From contig JAMLHA010000003.1 of the NCBI GenBank assembly GCA_023957475.1, forward strand, positions 62,001 to 126,000: a stretch of 64,000 bases of DNA. The letters are read 5' to 3'. Shown here piece after piece: positions 1-5,564 of the stretch; within the stretch, counting starts at the first letter, position 1; every line of letters starts with the position of its first letter. Origin of the DNA: Crocinitomicaceae bacterium. Its GTDB lineage: Bacteria > Bacteroidota > Bacteroidia > Flavobacteriales_D > Crocinitomicaceae. A model generated the notes under the pieces. It was not told where the DNA came from. It made no database searches and worked only from the letters and a program-made list of their open reading frames with translations. The translations under genes were made by a program, and so were the position numbers.

Positions 1-408
1 CTGTTAATTCGTTTTCCTACTTTATTTGTTTCTAATAATCCTAGTGAATCTCAATTTGAAAACCCTGTAGTTTGGTTTGTTATCAAGCAAAAAAACTGTA
101 TGGTAGGATTGGCTCAAAATGATGAAATAGCTATAAGTGAAGTACAAGATTTATCCCAATCATTGGGTAATACAAATATTGTATTAGAAGAATTCAAACC
201 TCAAATATATCCTAACCCTTTTAATGACTATATAGTTGTTGAAAGCAATATAGACGATGTGCTAATTATTAAAAATATTGAAGGACGAATTGTATTAAAA
301 CAAAATGTAAATAAAGGAAAACAACAAATAAACACATCTACGCTAAATAAAGGGATGTATTTTATTCAATTAGAAAAACAAAGTTTTACTGAAAAATTTA
401 CTAAATGA
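1..408 (+). CDS. C-terminal part of a T9SS-secreted protein (type A sorting domain), 5' end outside the window
   Basis: The reading frame is open from base 1, so the gene starts upstream of the window; the first ATG visible, at 100, need not be the start. About the last 75 residues match a type A T9SS C-terminal sorting domain: a YPNPF motif, an I-x-N-x-x-G-R-I-V core, an N-x-G-x-Y-F-I turn and a Lys-rich end. Known role of this domain: it directs the folded cargo through the type IX secretion system and is removed at the cell surface. The N-terminal cargo part is not in view, so its function is unknown. The stop codon overlaps the ATG of the next gene (ATGATG). Near-identical copies or fragments of this tail recur three more times within the next 4 kb. 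Confidence 0.8.
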   Translation: MLIRFPTLFVSNNPSESQFENPVVWFVIKQKNCMVGLAQNDEIAISEVQDLSQSLGNTNIVLEEFKPQIYPNPFNDYIVVESNIDDVLIIKNIEGRIVLKQNVNKGKQQINTSTLNKGMYFIQLEKQSFTEKFTK

Positions 409-1136
409 TGAAAAAATTAAAGTTCATATTAATTATGGTTATATCATTTAACTCTCAAGCGCAGGAGAATCATAGTTTGTATCTTGAAATAAGTCAAGGT
501 ATTTCACATAGTTTTTTTCAATTTGTTTCGTTAGAATCTAAATTAAATCTAGGATGGCAAATTAGTTCAAATAAAGGTGATTTTTCTTTATATAGTAAAT
601 TTGGTTATGTTGGCTATATTAATACTTTTATTAGTGATGTACAAGTACCATACAGAAAGAAACCGTTTGAATTAAATTATCCTACAATAGGTTTGGGTTT
701 TAATTATCGTTTTTTTAAAGAGAACAGAAAAATAGCCCCTTTTTTTGCGTTTGATTTTCAATCAGGAATAATAACCATGAAAAATAAAACTTCATCCATT
801 TTTATAGAAAGAGATAGTTATTATATTGCAAATAAATATGAGATAAATGAATTAAGTACTTATGATTATGATATATATTATTCCACTCCTTTTATAGGGT
901 CAACTACGTTTGGAATAAGTTGGAAAGGTTATATAAATCAATTTCAGATTAATTTTGCATTAGGATATAGTGCTACTTGCATAAGAGCTGGACATCAAAT
1001 TAATGAGAGTCATGTTCTTGAATCTAGAAAAGGGTATAAAGACTATTGGTATCATGGATTACTATTTAATATAGGGTTTAATTATTCGTTTCTCTTTAAT
1101 AAAACAAATAATAATCATAACGTAGAAAAAATATGA
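405..1136 (+). CDS. Hypothetical outer-membrane beta-barrel-like protein (intact copy of module gene A)
   Basis: A 243-residue protein with an N-terminal signal peptide (Met-Met-Lys-Lys, hydrophobic run, cleavage near Ser-Gln-Ala-Gln at about residue 20). The rest alternates aromatic and polar residues with Gly turns, as in small outer-membrane barrels, and ends with an aromatic-rich strand (FNIGFNYSF). I recognise no named family. It overlaps the T9SS tail gene upstream and the next gene downstream by 4 bases, so the three were probably co-transcribed. A heavily decayed second copy lies at 1956-2697. Confidence 0.6.
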   Translation: MMKKLKFILIMVISFNSQAQENHSLYLEISQGISHSFFQFVSLESKLNLGWQISSNKGDFSLYSKFGYVGYINTFISDVQVPYRKKPFELNYPTIGLGFNYRFFKENRKIAPFFAFDFQSGIITMKNKTSSIFIERDSYYIANKYEINELSTYDYDIYYSTPFIGSTTFGISWKGYINQFQINFALGYSATCIRAGHQINESHVLESRKGYKDYWYHGLLFNIGFNYSFLFNKTNNNHNVEKI

Positions 1137-1959
1137 ATAAAATAAAATTTACCATACTATTTTTTACTCTTTTGAATTATTCATTTGTGTTTAATCAAAT
1201 GCAAACAAAGGGTTATTTTGGTTTAAATCAAATTTTTCATCCAACTAAAGATTTTACAGAGTCAAATTTGGATTTAGGAATGTCTTTTCAATTTGATAAA
1301 TTCAGCATATCTCCATTTATTTTATACCAATTTGGAGGTAATTATAAAATAAATAATTATAAACCATATACTTTAAATTACAACCTAATAGGCGCAGGTT
1401 TAGGCGTTAAAATGCGAGGTACAGACAAAAAAGAAGAAGCATGTTTCAAATTAAATTGTTTTTCAAAGGTACCACCAACTATGGAGGTTTTAGTAAGACT
1501 TTAAATGATAAACTATCTCTGTTTACATCTCAGACTAGTAGTGATGAAAAAATAATCATTTTAGAAAATAGTTATGAAAATTTATTAGCATATCAACATT
1601 ACTTATTTTACTACTATGGTACTAACATAAATGCAAGTATTAATATAGCACATCATTTTAAGATTTTTAATGGATTTTATTTAAATATCAGTATAGGATA
1701 TTCTTATAGAGAAATTAAATATAAATATTTTAATAAAACTTTAAATTATTATGATTTATCTTATTTTTCTGATAATCGATATTTCTATAAAGGAGTTCAC
1801 TTGTTAGATCTAGGAATAGGGTTGAGTTATACTTTTGGTCGTAATCATCAAGTTGAAAAAGCAAAAAAACAGAATGAAATAAACACATCTACGCTTAATA
1901 AAGGGATGTATTTTATTCAATTAGAAAAACAAAGTTTCACTGTAAAATTTACTAAATGA
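1133..1959 (+). pseudogene. Frameshifted barrel-like gene (module gene B, copy 1) with a T9SS tail fragment fused to its 3' end
   Basis: The frame starting at 1133 encodes a signal peptide and the first half of a barrel-like protein, then shifts by one base near 1430-1480 and stops at 1504. The second half continues in another frame (open from about 1441) to 1959. The copy at 2698-3489 reads straight through this point (Asp-Lys-Lys, then a Val-Lys-Leu-Phe-Phe stretch and Gly-Gly-Phe-Ser), so the shift is a lesion or a sequence error. After the residues KAKKQNEIN the 3' end runs into about 24 residues identical in type to the T9SS tail at 335-408, whereas copy 2 stops there. The tail looks acquired by recombination. 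Function unknown. Confidence 0.7.
1877..1959 (+). repeat. T9SS sorting-tail fragment, copy ii
   Basis: Bases from about 1877 repeat the end of the sorting domain at 329-408, encoding the INTSTLNKGMYF segment to the terminal Lys, with only a few substitutions, and end in the same TGA overlapped by ATGATG. The fragment is in frame with the second half of the broken gene B. It shares the variant CGCTTAATAAA with the fragment at 4317-4425, whereas the copies at 1-408 and 3484-3525 have CGCTAAATAAA. Confidence 0.8.
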
Positions 1960-2697
1960 TGAAAAAATTAAGGCTCCGTATTATTACATAGTTATCATTT
2001 AAACTTTCACAACTTTGGATGAATCATAGTTTTGTCTTGAAATAACTCAGGTACTTCATATAATTTTTTCAATTTGTTCCGTTAAGATCAGTCCGATATC
2101 GGGATGGCAAATTAACAATATTAAGATAGAATAAGGTGATTTTTCATTTCTTATATTAAATTTGATTATGTTGAAACATATTAATACTTACACATTAATT
2201 GATCTCACTTTAAAGTACCAGCCGCAGAAAACCGTTTGGAATTAAATTATCCCTCTGTAATGGAGTTTGGTTTAGTATCAGTTTTAAAGCGAATGAAAAA
2301 ATATTACTGCGTTTTGATTTTCAATCCCTGAGATAATAATAATGAAAATAAAACTCCATCATTTTATAAAGGAGATAATTTATTATAATTACCAAATAAT
2401 CATGAGATAAATGAATTATTGCCATGATTATGAATGTCTGTAATTCCACTCTCCTTTTATTGGCTCAACTACGGTTTGGAATAAGTTGAAGTTAAAAATC
2501 AATTTTCAGATGTGACAAAATTTGCATTGGATATAATTGCTCTTGCTTAAGGCTGGACATCTGTAGAATTAATGAAAGTTATATTTTTGGATTTAGAAAG
2601 GTATAGGGATATTGGTATCATGGATGTTTCGCACCATCATCAGCTTTAATTATTCGTTTCTCTTTAACTAAATAATAATCATAACATTATCCAAATA
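1956..2697 (+). pseudogene. Decayed second copy of module gene A
   Basis: This stretch aligns along its whole length with 405-1136, starting at the same ATGATGAAAAAATTAA junction. It carries many substitutions and short insertions or deletions (for example TAG stops within the first 30 codons and a 7-base insertion near 2120), so no long frame survives. It is the first half of a tandem duplication of the A-B module. Decay here is much heavier than in the gene B part that follows. Confidence 0.8.
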
Positions 2698-3489
2698 ATA
2701 GATAAAATAAAATTTCACCAACACTATTATTTTTTATCTTTGAATTTAAATTCGTTTATTGACCCAATCATCTTATCAAATACAAACAAAGGGTTATTTT
2801 GGTTTAAATCAAATTTTTCATCCAACTAAAGATTTTACAGAGTCAAATTTGGATTTAGGATGTCTTTTCAATTTGATAAATTCAGCATATCTCCATTTAT
2901 TTTATATCAATTTGGAGGTAATTATAAAATAAATAATTATAAACCATATTCTTTAAATTACAATCTAATAGGCGCAGGTTTAGGCGTTAAAATGCGAGGT
3001 GCAGACAAAAAATATGTCCCGGAAGTTAAATTGTTTTTTTCAAAAGAATTTTTTCCAAGCTATGGAGGTTTTAGTAAAACTTTAAATGATAAACTATCTT
3101 TATTTACATCTCAGACTAGTAGCTATGAAAAAGTAATGTTAGGAGGAATGTTTTTATTATATAAACATTACTTGTTTTATTACTGTGGTGCGAACATAAA
3201 TACAGGCATTAATATAACGCATCATTTTAAAATTTTTAATGGGTTTTATTTGAATATCAGTATTGGATATTCTTATAGAGAAATTAAATATAAAGATATT
3301 TTTGAATTAGTGAATAATATATCAGAAAATAATTTTGGCGATAAATATACTAATTCATATATAGAGACAGAAAATAGATATTTCTATAAAGGAGTTCACT
3401 TGTTAGATCTAGGAATAGGGTTGAGTTATATTTTTGGTCGTAATCATCAAGTTGAAAAGGCAAAAAAACAGAATGAAATAAACAAATAA
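2698..3489 (+). pseudogene. Second copy of module gene B, 5' end broken, 3' part open
   Basis: Alignment to 1133-1880 shows the start codon replaced by ATA (2698-2700), several indels before 2790, and one missing A near 2858 that shifts the frame. From 2860 onward 209 codons are open and encode a barrel-like protein ending KKQNEINK. Between about 2790 and 3005 the two copies differ by only a handful of bases. The open part could still be translated from ATG 2860, but it would lack a signal peptide, so I treat it as a pseudogene. Confidence 0.7.
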
Positions 3490-3525
3490 ACACATCTACG
3501 CTAAATAAATGGATGGTATTTTAAG
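3484..3525 (+). repeat. T9SS sorting-tail fragment, copy iii (short)
   Basis: The bases AAATAAACACATCTACGC and those following match the tail of the first gene at about 325-362, then diverge. The fragment starts exactly at the stop codon of the broken gene B copy, which suggests a recombination junction at an ATAAACA microhomology. Confidence 0.7.
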
Positions 3526-3616
3526 GATTAATGAGTAATGAGTTTTTAATTATACATTTCCAATTAGTAAGAACACAAACAACAAAATAAAAAAATTAGT
3601 TTCTAAAAAATCGGAT

Positions 3617-4312
3617 ATGAAAAATAGCTTAATTATTATCATTTTAGGAGTTTATTCACTTTTAGGATGTAAGAAGAAAACAGAACACGTAATTGAGTTA
3701 AATCTTAAGATTAAAAATCACATGAATTTAACCGGAAATTATGGAATGTATGGGAAAAAAGTAATAGTGTACGAATACAATAAAAAAAAGCAATGGGAAA
3801 GAGAAATTACTTCGGGTTTAACCGATAATAAAGGAGAATTTAGTTATAGAATTCCTGCTCCTGCTCTTAGTAATAGTAATAATAAGAATATAATTTACAA
3901 ATTTAGTTGCGAAAGAGCTCAAATTAGTTTAGGCAATGGTTCTAGTAATCCACTCGGAATGTGGGGCGCAATAGAATTAAATAGACCAGCAAGTGATGAA
4001 TTAAAAAAAGATGAAGTAACCAATGTTTTGATAACGTATGCAGATCTTATTAGAATGGGAGTGGTGTTTGTAAATAGCAATTGTTTTGATCAAAATGATA
4101 GAATTCGTTATCGGTTTAAATACATGCACGTAAAAGAAGGATGGTCAAATTGGCAAACTCATTATGGGTGCGCACCATTTTCATTTGCAGAATTTACATA
4201 CAATGATTCTATTTTGTATGAATACGAAGTAGAACGAAATGGTGTAATAAATACCTTTCAAATGAAGAGATATACTTATGATTATATAATGCCTGATACG
4301 TTGTATTATTGA
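3617..4312 (+). CDS. Putative lipoprotein of unknown function
   Basis: A 231-residue protein with a type II signal peptide: Met-Lys, a run of Ile/Leu, and the lipobox Leu-Leu-Gly-Cys18 followed by Lys-Lys-Lys. Residues about 25-100 look like a beta-sandwich of the kind that follows lipoprotein anchors in Bacteroidota (an N-x-x-L-T-G segment, then a D-N-K-G-E-F-S-Y motif typical of carboxypeptidase-regulatory-like or transthyretin-like folds). No family is recognised with confidence. It stands alone, bracketed by two T9SS-tail fragments (3484-3525 and 4317-4425), which suggests it belongs to a shuffled cassette of surface-protein genes. Confidence 0.65.
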   Translation: MKNSLIIIILGVYSLLGCKKKTEHVIELNLKIKNHMNLTGNYGMYGKKVIVYEYNKKKQWEREITSGLTDNKGEFSYRIPAPALSNSNNKNIIYKFSCERAQISLGNGSSNPLGMWGAIELNRPASDELKKDEVTNVLITYADLIRMGVVFVNSNCFDQNDRIRYRFKYMHVKEGWSNWQTHYGCAPFSFAEFTYNDSILYEYEVERNGVINTFQMKRYTYDYIMPDTLYY

Positions 4313-4316
4313 ACAG

Positions 4317-4425
4317 ATGAAGTAATAATTATTAAAAATCTTGAAGGGCGAATTGTATTAAAACAAAATGTAAATAAAGGAAGCAACAAATAAACACATC
4401 TACGCTTAATAAAGGGAAGGTATTT
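4317..4425 (+). repeat. T9SS sorting-tail fragment, copy iv, decayed
   Basis: About 109 bases match the first gene's tail from about 255 to 363 (encoding the IIKN-x-EGRIVLKQNVNKG stretch), with deletions after AAAGGAA and in the MYF region that break the frame. It directly follows the lipoprotein stop codon. No start or continuous frame is present, so it is a relic, not a gene. Confidence 0.8.
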
Positions 4426-4506
4426 ACATCATAAAAACACAAAATTATGAAACCACAGAAACACATAAAGTTATTGTTCGTTAGTTTTTAATAAATTTGA
4501 GAAAAT

Positions 4507-4715
4507 TGATAGATTACAAAGGTCACGTCCCTACGGGACTAAAAAGCGTTTAATCATAGGAAATCGACATCAAGCACTGTAGGTGCGATAGCTTTGTAGC
4601 ACAATCAGTATCAATTTTCATCAAGCTCCATCGGAGCGACACCTTTGTAATAAAATTATCCATCAATTCTATCAAACATGGGAGATGCAATATCTTTGTA
4701 TAAACACTAATCAGA
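4507..4715. repeat. REP-like intergenic repeat cluster: one forward and three reverse units of about 50 bp
   Basis: A forward unit near 4515-4545 has the pattern TACAAAGGT..CGTCCCTACGGGACT. It is followed by three units of the opposite orientation spaced 50 bases apart, centred near 4587, 4637 and 4687 (GGTGCGATAGCTTTGTA, GGAGCGACACCTTTGTA, and a decayed GAGATGCAATATCTTTGTA). Each unit holds a small palindrome such as CCCTACGGG. Similar elements are common between genes in Bacteroidota genomes. The rest of 4431-4805 shows no gene. Confidence 0.6.
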
Positions 4716-5404: not shown

Positions 5405-5485
5405 AATTTCGCACCTACGGCGTTCTGTTATGTGGGGAAACTATCAATTTTCTACAAAGATTTCGTCTCTACGAGACTAAAAAGG
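5405..5485 (+). repeat. REP-like repeat, two forward units
   Basis: TTCGCACCTACGGCGTT near 5408 and TTCGTCTCTACGAGACT near 5462 are about 54 bases apart. The second is preceded by TCTACAAAGA and followed by AAAAAGG. They belong to the same family as the units at 4507-4715 but face the other way from most of those. Confidence 0.55.
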
Positions 5486-5564
5486 AACCCCAAAACGATA
5501 GTTCATACAAGGAACCAAAAAGTGCGGTGGCCCGATGAAAATAGCGGGAAGCGGTGGCGAGAAT

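Follow-up and report, generated by a model that had tools for sequence, protein, structure and literature searches.

A decayed locus of T9SS cargo ends and predicted outer-membrane barrel genes in a Crocinitomicaceae genome, probably a degenerate 3'-cassette array

At the left end of the 64 kb stretch of DNA analysed here (the window, G000:C23:62001-126000, from a genome of 3.14 Mb in 33 contigs), a segment that starts inside the sorting tail of a T9SS cargo gene and includes two downstream barrel genes, A and B, is tandemly duplicated over 1.55-1.6 kb. Comparison with sequences from other Crocinitomicaceae suggests that the locus is probably a decayed cargo-barrel cassette array, a degenerate member of polymorphic 3'-cassette systems. 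The following features were recognized.

1-408, + strand: 3' end of the T9SS cargo gene; T1, its sorting tail of type A, lies at about 205-405 (Pfam and NCBIfam matches)
405-1136, + strand: gene A, copy A1, intact, with a signal peptide and a predicted 8-stranded outer-membrane barrel
1133-1876, + strand: gene B, copy B1, a barrel of the same broad family as A, frameshifted near 1440-1500
1877-1959, + strand: T2, a copy of the final 83 bp of the cargo gene (96% identity to 326-408), with which the second unit begins on its left side
1956 to about 2690, + strand: A2, pseudogene copy of gene A, with stops in all frames
2700-3489, + strand: B2, copy of gene B, open from 2860 only
3480-3523, + strand: T3, a short tail stub behind B2 that closes the duplicated block (self-blastn and sequence comparison)
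3617-4312, + strand: lipoprotein-like gene, intact, with a Cys after the signal peptide; a relative of four tandem genes on contig C1
4313-4484, + strand: T4, a frameshifted tail stub that begins directly after the lipoprotein stop (self-blastn and frame reading)
4447-4487, + strand: 41-bp stretch that matches the gene starts of the C1 lipoproteins at 98-100% identity

The original prediction described four copies or fragments of one tail at this locus; these are real and far beyond chance. DNA of T1, which ends at 408, is seen again at 1877-1959, about 3480-3523 and 4315-4446. Self-blastn of the window aligns 252-385 with 4315-4446 (86%, E=3e-37) and 314-364 with 3472-3523 (90%, E=9e-13), and the 12-mer ACACATCTACGC occurs at exactly four sites in 64 kb (332, 1883, 3490 and 4394), on the + strand each time. 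The copies do fall into two variants, CTAAATAAA in T1 and T3 and CTTAATAAA in T2 and T4, but the difference rests on one base. T4 extends further than the 4317-4425 first given: its left part is T1-like, and its right part (4413-4484) reads in another frame as REGIYIIKTQNYETTETHKVIVR and a stop, a typical T9SS tail end. On this comparison T4 is probably a mosaic of a T1-like left part and a different tail end on the right. T3 and T4 are broken as sorting tails. T2 alone gives a partial match to TIGR04183 (25.3 bits, cut-off 23), located on the frameshifted barrel gene and below the Pfam cut-off.

Positions 326-1915 align over their full length with 1877-3523 (self-blastn, 1710 columns at 78%, E=0), and one tandem duplication therefore accounts for the larger part of the tail pattern. 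Its alignment edges, at 326/1877 and 1915/3523, bear out the expectation of a rearranged locus with edges in or near the tail. T4 adjoins the lipoprotein stop, but T2, contrary to the original prediction, is no separate tail at a gene boundary and marks the edge of the tandem duplicate. Of the barrel genes A1 alone is intact, and its start overlaps the cargo stop as ATGA. The frameshifted B1 has an open frame that continues in frame through T2 up to the A2 start; A2 is dead and still overlaps T2 by ATGA, while the start and signal-peptide region of B2 are out of frame. An assembly error behind A2 is unlikely, as many substitutions besides indels separate A2 from A1. At the join, the sequence is ...GAATG/AAATAAACACATC in B1 and ...GAATGAAATAAAC/AAATAAACACATC at the end of B2, with an 8-bp repeat. 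The duplication could have arisen when T1 and a T3-like tail underwent unequal crossing-over.

Counted from its first ATG, upstream of the window, the cargo protein has 849 aa (L006:7859-10408); the open frame as a whole is 881 aa, with a hydrophobic stretch before this ATG, and the start codon is unsure. T1 matches PF18962 (49.2 bits, cut-off 27) and, as a type A sorting domain over the curated cut-off, TIGR04183 (46 bits, cut-off 23). TIGR04183 is the sole match among the NCBIfam sorting domains, and the type B tail TIGR04131 was not matched on the cargo. PorV is found over cut-off in the genome at C28:93018-94166. Relatedness of the cargo to DUF5060 proteins is weak in Pfam and over cut-off for the relative in genome G020, and the family profile clearly matches PDB 9gmj and 9gpc. 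Conserved LLSEP and SEFG-like motifs presumably fit a clan GH-A glycosidase. An AlphaFold2 model of the whole cargo of one relative (pLDDT 40) was set aside as too poor for domain borders.

About 300-350 bp of 5' leader DNA is common, at 85-86%, to L006:7684-8035, just upstream of the window, and to L088:5623-5918 (G000:C1) and L089:5533-5195 (G000:C31), and a leader piece of 115 bp (97%) is present on C30. The shared part comprises the promoter region and the first ~59 codons (NVGIGTTTPSSRLQVNGTAKIDSSL...), after which the genes at the three loci differ. Possibly this leader is a 5' end that is shared and swapped.

The model of A1 has a signal peptide and eight strands (pLDDT 72) and is similar to OmpW, NspA and OprF barrels. 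A and B form one divergent family when linked via relatives. Assignment of A and B to PorP/SprF was rejected, TIGR03519 giving no match to them at E 0.1; the TIGR03519 matches in the genome sit at other places.

The relatives of the lipoprotein-like gene form a second conserved-5', variable-3' array in this genome. At L088:6111-8975 on C1, four tandem lipoprotein genes are mostly 80-97% identical over the 5' 300 nt and 40-82% in their 3' halves, and the array has a barrel 3' stub on its left side and, on its right, a 41-bp remnant of a gene start, which the 41-bp stretch of the window also matches. A dispersed intergenic repeat (CGTCCCTACGGGACTAAAAAGCG...) at 4515-4678 and 5417-5495 of the window has further copies on C1, C16, C29, C31 and C33, and borders the arrays of C1, C23 and C31 on one flank or on both.

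Gene order is not fixed among relatives. Neither of the two same-genus genomes has A, B or the lipoprotein gene; they have cargo relatives, and in the two with fully read ends the tail is absent. Elsewhere in Crocinitomicaceae, a DUF5060-type T9SS cargo followed by small outer-membrane barrel genes is found at like loci in G020, G049, G008 (Brumimicrobium aurantiacum), G116 (two loci) and G140. An ATGA overlap of tail stop and barrel start is present at 24/24 tail-barrel junctions from six genomes, and because the two genes overlap, duplicated barrels bring tail ends along; a barrel copied with its start region would carry a tail end with it. Tail stubs of 18-44 residues precede four barrels in G049 and two in G140, and by sequence comparison these are the T2 pattern of the window recurring. 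Eight barrels of relatives have no preceding tail.

These junctions could also be explained by selection. If translation of the barrel were tied to termination in the tail frame that it overlaps (translational coupling), the stubs would be kept for that purpose, independently of cassette exchange. The ATGA overlap at every junction, even with stubs of only 18 codons, is consistent with such coupling, as is the reading of B1 in frame via T2 to the A2 start. However, A2 behind T2 is dead and the geometry is kept, so that common descent suffices here, and eight barrels manage without a tail. Coupling as the reason for the stubs is a doubtful explanation, although the strongest of the alternatives.

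Among the grounds for the cassette-array reading are orphan 3' modules in G116 and G008. These are open frames that begin inside the enzyme domain and extend over C-domain and tail into the barrel gene that follows, with no visible signal peptide; to judge solely from this last feature, they are apparently silent. Near its 5' end each module carries an arm, whose best 100-nt window matches the full cargo at 94-99% identity in all but one of the six modules and at 74% in the sixth. Past the arm, DNA identity between orphan and full cargo drops to ~50% over the C-domain, tail and barrel. The left edge in all three G116 orphans is cargo nt 1842, and one of them (L083 orphan 1) has a longer similarity to the cargo (87% over 694 columns). 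Within G116 and G008, protein identity is 0.93-1.00 for the compared arm part, 0.34-0.62 for the variable part and 0.25-0.33 for the barrel. Between genomes the means are 0.60, 0.37 and 0.26, respectively. This indicates that the arms are homogenised, and that in their ends and barrels the modules of one genome differ about as much as those of different genera. In the G020 orphan the arm is not homogenised (0.56). Variable module and barrel are weakly correlated (r 0.36, p 0.014, 11 pairs, relatedness not removed). Two G116 cargo genes (L082 and L083; G116:C1) are identical over 2841 nt at loci ~760 kb apart that differ in their flanks and downstream modules, an apparent case, from the sequences, of gene conversion or very recent copying. 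The genome of the window has tail stubs only and no intact orphan module; in B. aurantiacum, L081:187-477 is an orphan shrunk to the arm start and tail, which by analogy may be a model for the origin of T3 and T4.

An ordinary, isolated duplication of 1.55-1.6 kb, with illegitimate recombination at the AAATAAAC repeat as its origin and decay thereafter, would require no swapping and would treat T3 and T4 as chance leftovers. The duplication itself is certain, there is an 8-bp repeat at the join, and most copies are broken, all of which this simpler account accommodates. A single event nevertheless leaves T3 and T4 unexplained, and it does not extend to the tail stubs in the same geometry in G049 and G140 or to the arm-bearing orphan modules of G116 and G008. 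We consider it unlikely as the whole explanation.

It had also been proposed that sorting tails, as the most similar parts of T9SS cargo genes, may serve as landing sites for recombination, by which cargo bodies are shuffled or tails are put on new proteins. Within the window, the duplication edges lie inside a tail and T4 resembles a mosaic of two tails, as would be expected of such sites. In B. aurantiacum, too, two orphans share their last 400-500 nt (89-100%) while the barrels that follow differ. Genome-wide the proposal fared poorly. A search with the tail DNA found, beyond the four local copies, just one weak 41-base match (C33). A profile search with Por_Secre_tail detected 95 T9SS tails in the genome, and all-against-all DNA comparison of the 30 best-scoring of the 95 gave one long high-identity pair only (C13/C32), which is a whole-gene duplicate. 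The role of tails as genome-wide landing sites was rejected on these two results. In the arrays of relatives, moreover, the near-identical stretch is not the tail but the upstream arm, at the end of the enzyme domain, the tail lying within the variable end, although there are B. aurantiacum orphans whose tails are alike, as mentioned above. No chimera of a T1-type tail with an unrelated body was found, the B1-T2 fusion being a frameshifted accident. Overall, landing sites are a very improbable explanation. The C13/C32 pair (L120/L121) is a 4.36 kb duplication at 97.4% that holds a whole T9SS-tail gene of ~1350-1370 aa.

By analogy with polymorphic toxin-immunity systems, the variable cargo end could harm neighbours and the downstream barrel protect against it, which the matching layout of constant body, variable 3' end and orphan cassettes each with a small downstream gene would fit (PMC3482391), but the variable end consists of a sorting tail and a C-domain that is homologous, Pfam and NCBIfam gave no toxin domain, PADLOC found nothing, and the idea is highly improbable.

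The layout of those loci (CDI, Rhs and MafB, with orphan 3' cassettes; PMC3482391) is nonetheless, with that of type B cargo and its PorP/SprF shuttle, the nearest known to the one proposed here. Here too there is a constant 5' body with a variable 3' end, with linked cassettes that lack the trafficking part, are each followed by a small gene and have a homologous arm ahead of the variable part. G116 and G008 combine the constant body and variable 3' end with arm-bearing orphan cassettes, and the window has stubs only. Unlike in the toxin loci (PMC3482391), no toxin domain was found, the variable part takes in the T9SS sorting tail, and the small gene encodes a predicted outer-membrane barrel. 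T9SS type B cargo with its PorP/SprF shuttle (PMC12618676, PMC9143113) likewise has a barrel gene directly downstream of the cargo. In contrast to that system (PMC12618676, PMC9143113), this cargo has a type A tail (TIGR04183), of the kind that PorV normally serves, and A and B give no match to the PorP/SprF family and are predicted to be 8-stranded. For Porphyromonas gingivalis surface proteins, the part of the source drawn on here (PMC5266723) reports domain rearrangement and allelic exchange in which it is the adhesin domains that vary, the C-terminal domain being described as conserved. Recombination thus diversifies T9SS cargo near the C-terminal side, as proposed here; linked orphan modules with barrel genes are not described in that part of the source. 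No description of such a cassette layout was found in the literature on type IX secretion, polymorphic toxins, antigenic variation and gene conversion, a survey in which subscription journals were thinly covered.

Taken with the modules of G116 and G008, the cassette-array reading would start from a single T9SS cargo gene with a constant enzyme-like body and a type A tail, followed by barrels overlapping the tail stop. The exchanged parts seem to be cargo ends and barrel genes, with the body staying constant, rather than bodies that move onto an unchanging tail. Recombination through the arm would, in intact systems, swap the 3' end of the expressed cargo along with its barrel and so generate surface variants; the barrel may dock or anchor its own cargo end. 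T3 and T4 would be remains of such orphan-type modules. The broader model, in which Crocinitomicaceae possess a polymorphic T9SS cargo whose C-domain, tail and cognate barrel are replaced from silent downstream modules via a homogenised arm, the window holding a degenerate copy, is advanced tentatively, as a possibility that falls somewhat short of even chances.

If the cassette reading is true, these bacteria exchange the sorting end of a T9SS enzyme together with its outer-membrane partner, in the genetic layout of polymorphic toxins. Candidate benefits of such variation are phage or predator evasion, kin recognition and glycan specificity. It would also suggest that dedicated barrel partners can exist for type A cargo too, and the arrays would provide natural matched sets of cargo-end and barrel variants with which the role of the barrel could be tested.
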